From a virus: a DNA stretch of 23,150 bases. A program made the translations under genes and the position numbers. Position 1 is the stretch's first letter, and the number at the start of each line of letters is the position of its first letter. Below are positions 17,964-21,978 of the stretch, in pieces. The stretch is taken from positions 1 to 23,150 of the IMG/VR virus record IMGVR_UViG_3300025131_010066, one strand, 5' to 3'. The notes beneath the pieces are model-generated. The model was not told where the DNA came from, did no database searches, and worked only from the letters and a program-made list of their open reading frames with translations.

Positions 17964-18046
17964 TGGCTGAGATGATTGCGGTATTCTGCCTCCTAGTTCT
18001 GGGGCAGTTTACGTCTCTATATTACGCGCATCGAAATGACCCATAA
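17963..18046 (+). CDS. 27-residue single-pass membrane peptide
   Basis: A short frame from ATG 17963, overlapping the previous stop as TAATG, encodes MAEMIAVFCLLVLGQFTSLY then YAHRNDP. Residues about 4-20 are a plausible transmembrane helix with a short polar C-terminus. Its coupling to the upstream gene (GAAGGTGAA just before the start) supports translation. Phage micro-proteins of this kind can be inner-membrane peptides; no specific role can be assigned. Confidence 0.45.
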   Translation: MAEMIAVFCLLVLGQFTSLYYAHRNDP

Positions 18047-18350
18047 CGTCGTATGGCAAGAGTGAGCATGAAATTAGGCAAACTTTGCCAGAATACTCCT
18101 TCTCAAGGGGCAGAAATATGAATATGAACCTCGAAGTTTCCAACTTGATGAAACAACATCATACACGCCTGATTTCAAAGTAGGGGAGATGTATTATGAA
18201 ATCAAGGGATACATGACAAAAAAAGCTAAACGAAAAATTGATATGTTTCGAAAGCTCCATCCGGACATTTCTCTTGTAATTGTAGATGGAAATGAATATG
18301 ATAATTTAAGAACAGAGTTTCAAGAACTCATACTCTGGGAAGGAAAGTAA
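18043..18350 (+). pseudogene. Frameshifted PD-(D/E)XK endonuclease gene
   Basis: A long frame 18078-18350 has no start codon near its 5' end yet encodes a recognisable nuclease: ANFARILLLKGQKYEYEPRS, then SYTPDFKVGEMYYEIKGYMT, then KKAKRKIDMFRKLHPD. PD-x8-9-ExK is the restriction-fold catalytic motif, and ExKGY followed by KxKIxxF is typical of phage-associated endonucleases of this type. Just upstream in another frame, TSYGKSEHE (18046-18072) is the expected N-terminal part; in relatives the order is GKSxxEANFAR. Five extra bases (18073-18077, ATTAG) separate the pieces. No start codon serves the upstream piece either. It is therefore probably a decayed homing endonuclease beside the polymerase gene. 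Confidence 0.65.
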
Positions 18351-18354
18351 CATT

Positions 18355-18447
18355 ATGACTACACAAAAGGAGGCCCACGGGGCACTTGGGTGTATGCGGG
18401 AACCGAAGCGATTCGCCAGCCTGCATTCTCACTCAGGTGCCTCGTGA
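18355..18447 (+). CDS. N-terminal segment of DNA polymerase III alpha ending at an in-frame TGA
   Basis: From ATG 18355 (AAGGA ten bases upstream; ATG 18394 is an alternative) a 30-codon frame encodes MTTQKEAHGALGCMREPKRF then ASLHSHSGAS and stops at TGA 18445-18447. FASLHSHSGAS is the first metal-binding motif of the PHP domain (canonical form F-x-HLHxHSxYSxxDG). The downstream frame is the same one and resumes with STWDGLGYP, the continuation of that motif. So this is the missing front of the polymerase gene, cut off by the stop discussed at 18442-18456. A strong AAGGAGG at 18367-18373 lies inside it with no start codon at proper spacing. Confidence 0.6.
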   Translation: MTTQKEAHGALGCMREPKRFASLHSHSGAS

Positions 18448-18456
18448 CCTAAATCG
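18442..18456 (+). other. Candidate translational-bypass (or stop-readthrough) site in the polymerase gene
   Basis: The sequence is TCG TGA CCT AAA TCG, all in the frame of the polymerase. Deleting nine bases so that one TCG remains gives HSHSGAS-TWDGLG, which matches the PHP motif HxHSxxSxxDG with exact spacing. Identical take-off and landing codons with a stop immediately after take-off is the hallmark of T4 gene 60 bypassing. A 6-bp hairpin with one bulge (18466-18472 with 18478-18483) begins ten bases after the landing codon. UGA followed by C is also a leaky stop context; readthrough would insert three extra residues. Confidence 0.45.
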
Positions 18457-18468
18457 ACTTGGGATGGC

Positions 18469-21400
18469 TTGGGATATCCAGCCGAGCATATTGATTTCGT
18501 TACAAGTGAAGAGCAGGGGATGGACGCCTGGTCATTGACTGATCATGGTAACGGGAATGGCTTGGCGCATGCCCATGTTCACGCCAAGAAGATTCAGGCA
18601 TCAGGGAAAAAGTATCGGCAGCTTTACGGCGTCGAGTTTTATTTCGTACCGTCCCTGGAAGAGTGGAAACACCAATACGAAAATCGGAACGAGGAATCCA
18701 AGAAGAGGAAATCCGCCAATCCAACATCAGAGGAGGATCAGGGCGGGTTCACCATTGAGGATGAGTCTGAGACCAAGAGCTCTGGAAAACCCGAGTGGAA
18801 GAAGTATCATCACTTGATTGTTGTTGCCAAAAACCGTAAAGGCCTTGGTAACCTATTTCACTTGGTCAAACGATCCTACAAGGAGGGATTCTATCGATTC
18901 CCGCGTATTGACTACAAGATGCTAAAGGAGCACTGTGAAGGCTTGATTGTTTCGACGGCTTGTATTGGTGGCCGGCCAAGCGCTATCATTTACGAAGAGT
19001 TCCCAGATGTCAAATTCATGGATTTGAATCCCGGATTATTGACCGGCCCTGAAGCTGAGAATCATGTTCGAAATATCAACAACCGACTCGAGAACATGGT
19101 GGATCAGTTTGTTGATGCTGTGGGCAAGGATAACTTCTTCCTGGAGATGCAGTTCCATGATCTGCCAGCCCAGCACTTGACCAACAAGTGTTTGCTTGAG
19201 CTGGCTAAGAAAACTGGTGTCCCACTTATCGCCACACCTGATTCTCATTTTCCATCACCTGAAAGATGGGAGGCTCGGGAGCTCTACAAGAAGCTGGGTT
19301 GGATGAAATCCAAACCTGAGGGGCAGATTCTTCCCAAGAAAGAAGACATGAAAACAATGCTGTACCCAAAGAATGCGTCCCAAATGTGGGGAGAGTTCAA
19401 GAAAGGGTATGAATTGTATGACTTCTATGAGGGGTACGAGGATACGGTTCGTGATTCCATTGAGAGAACACACGATATCGCATGGGAGCAGTGTGAGGAC
19501 ACATGGATCGATCAGTCAGCCAAATTGCCACGTTACGATACTGCCGATAGCACAGCATTCCAAAAGCTTGCAGCTCTGGTTAAGAAAGGTCTGATTCAGG
19601 AGGGGCTGTCTGACAAGCCCGAGTATGTTGAACGTGCCAAAATGGAGTTGGGCGACATCAAGTACTTGGGTCACGAATCTTACTTCTTGGCGATGTTTGA
19701 CATCTTCAACAAAGCCAAGGATCACACATTGCTGGGGCCGGCCCGTGGTTCCGGTGGCGGCTCATTGGTGAACTTCCTACTGGGAATTACGCAGATGGAC
19801 CCGATTCTCCATGAGCTGTTGTGGAGTCGATTCCTTCATCGAGACAAAGCCGGATGGCCTGATATTGATACTGATGCTGGAGATCGGGATGCGTTGATTA
19901 CAGCAGCTCGTGAATTGTTTGGTGATGATTCAGTAATTCCAGTTAGCAATTTCAATACTTTGAAGCTGAAGTCTCTCATCAAAGATATCTCCAAGTTCTA
20001 TGGGGTTCCTTTTGATGAGGTCAATAAGCTAACTGGGCCTCTACAAGATGAAGTGATGCGGGCAGCATACGATGGGTCAACTGAGAAGTCGGTGTATGTC
20101 CTGACACACGAAGATTGCATGAAGCATTCCCAGGCGTATCGTGATTTCATGCTTCGCTATCCCGAGGTTGGCAAGCATGTTGAAACACTCTTCATGGAGA
20201 ATCGCTCAATTGGTCGCCATGCAGGCGGAGTTATTGTAGCACCAGCTGATGTGCTTGAAAGAACAATGCCATTGATTGGGGTGCGAGGAGAACTGCAGAC
20301 ACCCTGGACAGAAGGAATGAATTTCCGAACTCTGGAACCAAACGGGTTCTTGAAGTTTGATTTCCTCGGCCTGACACTTCTCAAGGATGTGGAGAATTGC
20401 ATCTATCGAATTCTCAAAAAGGACGGGAATCCCAATCCAACATTTCTTGATGCACGGAACTTCTTTGATGAGCATCTAAACTGTCGCTATAACGAGATGG
20501 ATGATCTTGGCGTGTGGAAGCATGTTTACGAAGATGGAAAAATGACCGGTGTATTCCAATTCACTGCAGCCGGAGCTCGAAACTTCTGCCTGGATGTGAA
20601 GCCCACCGATATCACAGAACTGGCAGCCATCACAGCAATCTATCGGCCAGGCCCGCTGAAAGCAAATGTGCATCGGAAGTATGTGAAGGCAAAACTGAAT
20701 AGGGAAGACATTGTTTATGATCATCCTATCATTGAAAAGATTCTGGGACCGACATGTGGGTTTGTTGTATTCCAGGAGCAATTCATGCAGCTGGCCATTG
20801 AATTGTCAGGATTCTCTCCTGGTGAGTCAGATAAGCTTCGAAAGACACTGGTCAAGAAATCTCTTGATTCAATCGGTGGAAAGCAGAATGAGCGTGAGGT
20901 GGCAAAGAAGAAGTTCATCGAAGGTGCCTTCAAGCTGAATCAGGTTGATAAGGGAATTTCAACCAAGCTCTGGGAAACCATTGAGGCATTTGCTGCCTAT
21001 GGATTCAACAAATCCCACGCCCTGGCTTATGCCATTGACTCCTACTACGCTGCATGGATGCACACTCACTATGAGGAGGAGTGGCTGGCAACAGTTCTTC
21101 AGTCGGAAAACAACAACGGAAAGGCTTTGACAAAGGCAATTGCCGAGATCAAGTCCTATGGGTTTGAGTTCTCCCAAATCGATGTGAATTACTCAGGCGA
21201 GTCCTGGGCATTCTCTCCAAAGATTGGAGCTTTCGTTCCTCCTCTATCTGCAGTAAAGGGAATCGGTGGCGCAGCCATGGATGAAATTGTCCAGATGCGT
21301 CCATATACTTCTCTCATAGACATGTTCTATGATGAGGATGGAGCCTGGAAGCATAGCAAGATGAACAAAACTTGCTTGTCTTCTTTGTGCAAGATTGAAG

Positions 21401-21978
21401 CCCTGGGTTCATTGCTGGAATTTGAAAGGGGAGAAATCTTCAATCATCGTCAGCTCTTTGAAGGATTGCACTTTGAGAAGAATTATGAATTCTTGCGGAG
21501 AGGAATTTTTGGAAAGACAAAAACTCAGGTCAAGAAGATTCGAAAACTAGGTGAGGAGCCCGAGATCTTTATTCACAAGATCTTGAAGGACTTTGCTGAC
21601 ACAGAAGATTGGACACGGATTGAGAAAGTCGACATGGCATTTGAGATGACATCAACTGTCGATGGTGGGCTATTATTTCCGGACAAACTGATGAAAAGGA
21701 TCGAGGAAAAGAACATCACGTCAATTCATGATATCCGTCCTGGAACATCCGGTGTGGGTTGGTTTGTAATCACTGACGTCATCAAGAAAAAAACCAAGAA
21801 CAACAAACCGTTCTATCGTCTCAAAGTGACTGATAACGATAATCAGGTAGGGTGGCTTCGAGTCTGGGGCGGAATGCAAAGGGATCCCGAGAAATACACC
21901 CTGTGGATGGCACACGCATCTCATGATGCTGGATGGGGAATGTCAACATCAGTCGCCAAGCTTCGGAGGGTTGCATGA
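18469..21978 (+). CDS. dnaE: DNA polymerase III alpha subunit (C-family replicative polymerase)
   Basis: The 1169-residue frame from TTG 18469 holds nearly all of a C-family polymerase. The rest of the PHP domain includes MDAWSLTDHGNGNG (18-31) and LIATPDSHFPS. Palm motifs are GPARGSGGGSLVN (423-435), GWPDIDTDAGDRD (D465, D467) and LKFDFLGL (D631). GVFQFTAAGARNF, AIYRPGPL, VFQEQFMQLA and YGFNKSHALAYA (844-855) follow in the usual order, then a helix-hairpin-helix and a C-terminal OB fold (about 1097-1150, GWFVITDVIKK). The catalytic triad is complete. The TTG has poor ribosome-binding support and would lack the first PHP motif, which is encoded upstream in the same frame across a TGA; the joined protein would be 1203 residues from ATG 18355. 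A T4-like phage would normally use a B-family polymerase. Confidence 0.9.
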   Translation: MGYPAEHIDFVTSEEQGMDAWSLTDHGNGNGLAHAHVHAKKIQASGKKYRQLYGVEFYFVPSLEEWKHQYENRNEESKKRKSANPTSEEDQGGFTIEDESETKSSGKPEWKKYHHLIVVAKNRKGLGNLFHLVKRSYKEGFYRFPRIDYKMLKEHCEGLIVSTACIGGRPSAIIYEEFPDVKFMDLNPGLLTGPEAENHVRNINNRLENMVDQFVDAVGKDNFFLEMQFHDLPAQHLTNKCLLELAKKTGVPLIATPDSHFPSPERWEARELYKKLGWMKSKPEGQILPKKEDMKTMLYPKNASQMWGEFKKGYELYDFYEGYEDTVRDSIERTHDIAWEQCEDTWIDQSAKLPRYDTADSTAFQKLAALVKKGLIQEGLSDKPEYVERAKMELGDIKYLGHESYFLAMFDIFNKAKDHTLLGPARGSGGGSLVNFLLGITQMDPILHELLWSRFLHRDKAGWPDIDTDAGDRDALITAARELFGDDSVIPVSNFNTLKLKSLIKDISKFYGVPFDEVNKLTGPLQDEVMRAAYDGSTEKSVYVLTHEDCMKHSQAYRDFMLRYPEVGKHVETLFMENRSIGRHAGGVIVAPADVLERTMPLIGVRGELQTPWTEGMNFRTLEPNGFLKFDFLGLTLLKDVENCIYRILKKDGNPNPTFLDARNFFDEHLNCRYNEMDDLGVWKHVYEDGKMTGVFQFTAAGARNFCLDVKPTDITELAAITAIYRPGPLKANVHRKYVKAKLNREDIVYDHPIIEKILGPTCGFVVFQEQFMQLAIELSGFSPGESDKLRKTLVKKSLDSIGGKQNEREVAKKKFIEGAFKLNQVDKGISTKLWETIEAFAAYGFNKSHALAYAIDSYYAAWMHTHYEEEWLATVLQSENNNGKALTKAIAEIKSYGFEFSQIDVNYSGESWAFSPKIGAFVPPLSAVKGIGGAAMDEIVQMRPYTSLIDMFYDEDGAWKHSKMNKTCLSSLCKIEALGSLLEFERGEIFNHRQLFEGLHFEKNYEFLRRGIFGKTKTQVKKIRKLGEEPEIFIHKILKDFADTEDWTRIEKVDMAFEMTSTVDGGLLFPDKLMKRIEEKNITSIHDIRPGTSGVGWFVITDVIKKKTKNNKPFYRLKVTDNDNQVGWLRVWGGMQRDPEKYTLWMAHASHDAGWGMSTSVAKLRRVA

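Follow-up and report, generated by a model that had tools for sequence, protein, structure and literature searches.

In the 23,150-nucleotide stretch of viral DNA that we analyzed (here called the window), the DNA polymerase III alpha gene (dnaE) is interrupted by a stop codon. Based on sequence comparison, we consider it very probable that this gene carries a homing-endonuclease cassette of a kind found in phage dnaE, with a short insert that is skipped by programmed translational bypass.

A stop-containing insert in the window dnaE

The stop inside the window polymerase gene is real. PHP motif I is interrupted (GCC TCG TGA CCT AAA TCG ACT TGG GAT), and the reading frame is open from the landing site through position 21978, across the PHP, pol3_alpha, finger, and HHH domains. 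The features of the region are as follows.

18078..18350, + strand: C-terminal remnant, about 90 amino acids, of a PD-(D/E)xK homing endonuclease (PHROG endonuclease, E 2e-11)
18355, + strand: ATG start of the dnaE reading frame
18355..18444, + strand: ORF1, the replacement dnaE 5' end, 30 codons, the last being the take-off Ser codon
18367..18373, + strand: AAGGAGG, an internal motif resembling a Shine-Dalgarno sequence, where the hairpin begins on its 5' side
18371..18400, + strand: hairpin 5' arms (18371-18373, main arm 18376-18392, inner arm 18394-18400; MFE fold, family covariation)
18420..18450, + strand: hairpin 3' arms (18420-18426, main arm 18430-18446, 18448-18450; MFE fold)
18442..18444, + strand: take-off codon TCG (Ser)
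18445..18456, + strand: insert TGA CCT AAA TCG, predicted to go undecoded and absent in insert-free relatives; stop-first inserts lie at this site in 31 other contigs
18445..18447, + strand: in-insert stop TGA, followed by CCT (18448-18450) and AAA (18451-18453)
18454..18456, + strand: landing triplet TCG
18457..21978, + strand: ORF2, the remaining dnaE (DNA polymerase III alpha), restarting at ACT

The bases that the first-pass annotation had reported, an in-frame TGA CCT AAA between two TCG codons, are confirmed by a second viral contig (L002, IMGVR_UViG_3300017703_001460), which matches the window over 10.5 kb at 99.7% identity, carries the identical insert, and differs from the window nowhere within about 200 nt of it. 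No second assembly lacking these bases was found, and a DNA similarity search of the region against phage isolates returned no match. Insert-free relatives (L011 to L014 and L025; 60 to 65% amino acid identity) read HxHSxxSTFDGLGYP and have no extra codons, and thus 12 bases are extra in the window dnaE. The annotation had taken out nine bases to restore HSHSGASTWDG, but that removal leaves ...GASSTWDG; to arrive at HSHSGASTWDG, 12 bases have to be left out of decoding, namely those nine and the TCG of the landing site, counting as for T4 gene 60. It had also judged code reassignment unlikely, and we reject TGA reassignment in the window as well, since TGA is the normal stop of several other genes there (RNR, ClpP, and others) and relatives use TAG or TAA.

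A family of inserts at the same site

Such inserts occupy this position in 32 viral contigs (31 and the window) and comprise 17 distinct sequences, the window's included. Their lengths of 5, 7, 8, 9, 10, 11, and 12 nt cover all three reading frames. Each of the 17 starts with UAA, UAG, or UGA immediately 3' of the Ser codon, and the stop is kept although its identity varies. At the insert site, L021 (60% identical) reads TTC TCC TAG GTA TCT ACA TTT, and seven more contigs with the endonuclease gene of L021 have either the L021 insert or TCG TAG ATA TCT. Wider scans yielded inserts after a TCG take-off codon (TCG[TAAATAAAATCA], TCG[TAAAGTTACG], TCG[TAATAATATCA], TCG[TAGCTACG], TCG[TAACG], and TCG[TAGCTTG]), after TCT (TCT[TAAATAAACT] and TCT[TGAAAATCT]), after TCC (TCC[TAATGGAACC], TCC[TAATAATCT], TCC[TGAATAATCT], TCC[TAAGTAATCT], and TCC[TAAGTAACC]), and after AGT (AGT[TAAGT]). 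None of the relatives found has sense codons in place of the window's bases; they have other stop-first inserts instead.

The inserts of the window, the L021 type, L162, L205, L303, and L309 are divisible by three, and that of L205 contains two consecutive in-frame stops. In about half of the lineages the insert shifts dnaE out of frame. The gene reopens 3' of every insert. On contigs of sufficient length the resumed frame runs on for hundreds of codons, whereas the zero frame of out-of-frame inserts closes within 0 to 26 codons. Where the resumed frame ended early, apparent split inteins were responsible in the cases examined. In pairs of insert-bearing genes, pN was well below pS on both sides of the stop, which indicates purifying selection, including on PHP motif I within ORF1. 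Moreover, the type of insert is conserved across near-saturated synonymous divergence of the downstream gene. The first in-frame ATG 3' of the insert is 11 to 35 codons away in 14 of the 15 genes tested, so that a fresh start would drop the conserved DGLGYP residues.

The last triplet of the insert (the landing triplet) agrees with the take-off codon at two or more of three positions in all 17 distinct inserts. The match is perfect in the window, L303, and L307 (AGT/AGT), and landing triplets often match at just two of the three positions. In total, 37 of 51 positions agree, compared to 28.5 after permutation (p 1e-4; the lineages are not fully independent). Where the first position is mismatched (UCN to ACN; n = 6), the remaining two match in every case. 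Part of this agreement may stem from descent from the resident Ser codon.

A further dnaE clade (80 loci) held no new insert beyond a known contig (L210, the same as L203). A search of a genome collection with the dnaE alignment gave one match, an insert-free dnaE (L209, PBHZ01000014.1; 59% identical) in a MAG that carries the label Euryarchaeota. Either archaea may be among the hosts of this virus group, or the bin is mixed. In L314 and L316, the frame of a dnaE directly 3' of the endonuclease gene is offset by one nucleotide (HSTF, C, S-LGDG). Neither a stop nor a strong hairpin is present, and a +1 frameshift on UUU-C may take the place of a hop.

An RNA hairpin that includes the take-off codon

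The first-pass annotation had placed a GC-rich hairpin ten bases downstream, but that stretch (18457-18500) is unremarkable (z -0.18). The actual structure lies upstream and includes the take-off codon: the window fold over 18367-18456 has an energy of -47.5 kcal/mol (z -5.4; 0 of 200 shuffles), and its main 3' arm contains the take-off codon and the UG of UGA. The gap itself is too short for a take-off stem-loop like that of T4, the take-off codon sitting instead in the 3' arm of this upstream hairpin.

Across the family, insert-bearing genes have a 5' extension that insert-free relatives lack. This extension carries the 5' arm of the hairpin, and the 3' arm passes through the take-off codon. 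AGGAG or GGAGG occurs in the ORF starts of 13 of 15 insert-bearing genes tested versus 15 of 195 insert-free genes. Duplex energies range from -24 to -45 kcal/mol in 18 insert-bearing genes, compared to a mean of -9.6 in 126 insert-free genes (Mann-Whitney p 8.5e-12). Covariation was measured on an alignment made from sequence only. RNAalifold recovers the helix, with two-sided changes in 7 of 8 pairs; in a 10-pair version, 7 pairs have two-sided changes, 88.7% of cells are paired, and covariation is 0.503 versus 0.176 in shuffled alignments (0 of 500) and at most 0.161 when the helix is slid. The N-terminal extensions vary between lineages and have only the DnaE motif in common; no conserved nascent-peptide signal was seen in the N termini of insert-bearing dnaE genes.

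A conserved promoter-like stretch, ACGTGTAAATAA...TATAATAAA, lies between the endonuclease gene and ORF1 in L092, L094, L098, and others (the L021 group), and is also present 5' of dnaE in insert-free relatives.

The adjoining homing endonuclease gene

The decayed endonuclease that the first-pass annotation had seen immediately upstream is indeed there (18078-18350). Its N-terminal two-thirds are gone or broken, with in-frame stops at 18063-18077, whereas intact homologues (L021, L121, L131, and others) have 297 to 305 amino acids, with a cysteine-rich N-terminal part, a conserved PDF...E-x-K motif, and PHROG endonuclease matches. At 18036-18077, the decayed endonuclease start overlaps the preceding small ORF and then runs through TGA..TGA..TAG before the conserved ANFAR motif. 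That this broken start marks another small hop was considered for the window and rejected, because the intact homologues show that the N-terminal two-thirds are missing.

We modelled the endonuclease from a deeper alignment, which replaced a low-confidence first model; the C-terminal domain has pLDDT values mostly around 90. This domain superposes on T7 endonuclease I over 46 to 50 residues at 0.7 to 1.3 Å, with a modest Z of 4.7, and on I-Bth0305I with a modest Z of 6.9 (rmsd 3.2, 78 aligned). In a Foldseek search with the model, no match reached E 0.001, and whole-chain matches were weak. Among phage isolates, the endonuclease has distant relatives only. By its catalytic motif and predicted fold, the upstream gene is a PD-(D/E)xK nuclease.

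Insert-bearing dnaE usually lies directly 3' of such a gene. In nine loci (L021, L092, L093, L095, L097, L131, L185, L191, and L205), the original dnaE 5' end is retained on the far side of the nuclease gene, some 1.2 kb upstream, and is severed near the Ser codon (e.g., MSIYLITPPDRFVSLHSHSTF, then a stop). Many members, among them the window, L121, L183, L198, and L199, have no upstream 5' end remaining. L097, which has the insert, is sister to L102, which has an empty site, and their comparison shows that the cassette went in after the Phe codon and before the Ser codon. Further, L021 and L092 are 62% identical in the upstream flank, 91 to 95% in the cassette, and 76 to 83% in the downstream dnaE. 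On a tree of 72 dnaE genes, the insert requires 13 changes, and it tracks the nuclease gene: of 12 independent pairs that differ in the insert, on average 8.4 differ in the endonuclease the same way and 0.3 the opposite way (median p 0.008). A nuclease gene that is inserted at or near its presumed target and absent from close relatives points to a mobile cassette, and the link to a mobile endonuclease is far stronger than a sequence-only reading of the window could tell. The window reads as a late stage, in which only the final 90 codons of the endonuclease are left and the original 5' end has been lost. In L111 and L162 the insert is present, and no endonuclease was found upstream.

The association also occurs the other way around: endonuclease-linked dnaE without an insert was found in L022, L189, L193 to L197, L200, L204, L297, L305, L318, and L321. 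The nuclease is thus not always in need of an insert, and other routes to immunity must exist. In L189, L193 to L197, L200, L204, L297, L305, L318, and L321, and also in L336, the endonuclease gene directly abuts an uninterrupted dnaE.

The dnaE genes of relatives have apparent split inteins elsewhere, at about residue 205 (L098, L113, and L171), at about residues 483 to 514 (L092, L094, L177, and L191), at about residue 785 (L184), and at about residue 871 (L119, L120, L162, L166, L171, and L185). Several have a separate endonuclease ORF between the halves, and some dnaE genes carry two. Other dnaE insertions of 1.2 to 1.5 kb in relatives proved to be apparent split inteins.

Proposed mechanism and alternative explanations

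We propose that a free-standing PD-(D/E)xK homing endonuclease gene entered dnaE at the codons of PHP motif I (HxHSxF|S-TFDG), and that the cassette would have carried in, besides the nuclease gene, a dnaE 5' end of its own. Placed next to the resident STFDG codons, this copy would re-create the presumed target, and thus something must hold them apart; the insert of 5 to 12 nt would keep the cassette immune to its own nuclease. To judge from the anatomy of the site, the ribosome would read ORF1 and then pause, the take-off codon being held by peptidyl-tRNA-Ser while the stop occupies the A site. The upper part of the ORF1 hairpin should by then be refolding behind the ribosome, and by zipping further it would pull the mRNA. 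The peptidyl-tRNA would re-pair with the triplet that closes the insert, which matches the take-off codon fully or nearly, and decoding would resume to give ...HSHSGAS-TWDG.... The sequences show that the nuclease gene can decay, as in the window, or be absent, as in L111 and L162, with insert and hairpin persisting. The hairpin has the geometry of the 5' stem-loop motor of T4 gene 60, and the way of working suggested here is drawn by analogy from T4.

The first-pass annotation had suggested a very short T4-gene-60-like bypass tied to a homing endonuclease. That relatives have stop-first inserts at this very site, often out of frame, supports this reading; its hairpin position and skipped length do not hold. 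Among other explanations, readthrough of a leaky UGA-C, with three or four extra residues tolerated in the PHP loop, is compatible with the window taken alone, where the insert is in frame, and the inserts of the L021 type, L162, L205, L303, and L309 are likewise multiples of three. It is very unlikely nonetheless: inserts of 5, 7, 8, 10, and 11 nt, which share the site and the hairpin, throw dnaE out of frame, L205 would require two consecutive stops to be read, and the stop after Ser is preserved in all 17 inserts despite its changing identity. With all three frames represented, readthrough cannot explain the family. Some unknown hairpin-guided excision or splicing could instead remove the insert from the RNA. 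The strong conserved hairpin spans the left border and could in principle serve to guide another process, and several contigs keep the original gene 5' end before the nuclease gene in an intron-like arrangement. We consider RNA removal very improbable, however, as many members (for instance, the window, L121, L183, L198, and L199) have no upstream 5' exon and the stop after Ser and the match of take-off and landing codons would serve no purpose in excision. Group I or group II introns were rejected, with no Rfam match at the gathering threshold in the window and 17 loci.

Termination at the stop could also be followed by reinitiation of a second polypeptide, perhaps with the hairpin bringing in a Shine-Dalgarno sequence, the arrangement of T4 genes 38 and 25. 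An internal Shine-Dalgarno-like motif does lie at the foot of the hairpin, and initiation at AUG by this arrangement has been described in T4 (PMC3014915). Yet no consistent in-frame start lies by the junction, given the distance to the first ATG, and purifying selection acts on the PHP motif I of ORF1, which makes this reading most improbable. That dnaE in the insert-bearing contigs is a pseudogene or an assembly error, as the decayed neighboring endonuclease of the window might suggest, is exceedingly unlikely given 32 contigs with conserved insert types, intact downstream frames, and purifying selection. Protein trans-splicing by a split intein at PHP motif I, for which the apparent split inteins with nucleases between their halves at other dnaE positions would be a precedent, has a minimal probability: the left part runs into a stop directly after HSTF and has no N-intein, the HN motif of a C-intein is missing from the right part, and the N-terminal codons occur again 3' of the nuclease.

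Implications and comparison with known systems

If the bypass reading is right, dnaE would join T4 gene 60 as the second phage gene that encodes its own ribosomal hop, and it would be the first for which numerous natural variants can be compared. T4 gene 60 is the single phage case of endonuclease-linked programmed bypass, and the rules of bypass could thus be learned only through mutation so far; many natural gap lengths, stops, take-off codons, and hairpins would make them readable from evolution. Bypass that evolves to tolerate an endonuclease-protective insert would become a recurrent, testable pattern, and genes of this type are likely misannotated, with truncated starts, in viral metagenomes. 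We think it likely that these loci represent a widespread phage mobile element with its own recoding device, consisting of a homing endonuclease, a replacement gene start with a ribosome-driving hairpin, and a short stop-containing immunity insert. At least 17 short hops would then be available as a natural library, and the in-frame stop hops among them would be the first from nature. In the open-access literature, whose coverage is incomplete, we found no report of this dnaE insert family.

Genes fractured by split inteins and accompanied by free-standing homing endonucleases (I-Bth0305I type) involve the same host gene and likewise have the nuclease between the gene halves. The C-terminal domain of our nuclease model resembles I-Bth0305I; in contrast to that type, the halves in the dnaE family would be joined at translation and not by protein splicing. 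The mitochondrial byp elements of Magnusiomyces capitatus are also many short bypassed inserts, and they tolerate landing matches at two of three positions (PMC5009743). They are, however, mitochondrial and said to be independent of mRNA context, whereas the dnaE family has a conserved hairpin and a homing endonuclease. For in-frame stop hops, no natural example is known (PMC5009743); the synthetic ones in E. coli (Weiss et al. 1987, cited in PMC5009743) were test constructs.

The closest likeness is to T4 gene 60 and MobA, where a homing endonuclease adjoins a split replication gene and, as described for T4, a nuclease with a protective insert is combined with a stop after the take-off codon and a 5' stem-loop "motor" (PMC5009743, PMC11194080). 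The same target-protection reasoning has been given for the 50 nt of T4 gene 60 (PMC5009743). In both systems the insert is thought to protect against the nuclease, the stop follows the take-off codon immediately, the landing codon is matched, a 5' stem-loop is able to refold behind the ribosome, the two ORFs need not share a frame, and the hop comes early (codon 26 to 35 in the dnaE family, 46 in T4). The dnaE family differs in leaving 5 to 12 nt undecoded rather than 50, in using Ser rather than Gly codons, in having neither a take-off stem-loop in the gap nor a conserved nascent-peptide signal that we could see, and in its PD-(D/E)xK rather than HNH nuclease. Further, the gene concerned is dnaE, whose 5' end the cassette replaces, and the family extends over 32 contigs, while the bypass of T4 gene 60 has been called apparently unique (PMC3014915). 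Because the gap is much shorter and has no take-off stem-loop, we describe the dnaE inserts as working like T4 gene 60 and do not file them as the same element.
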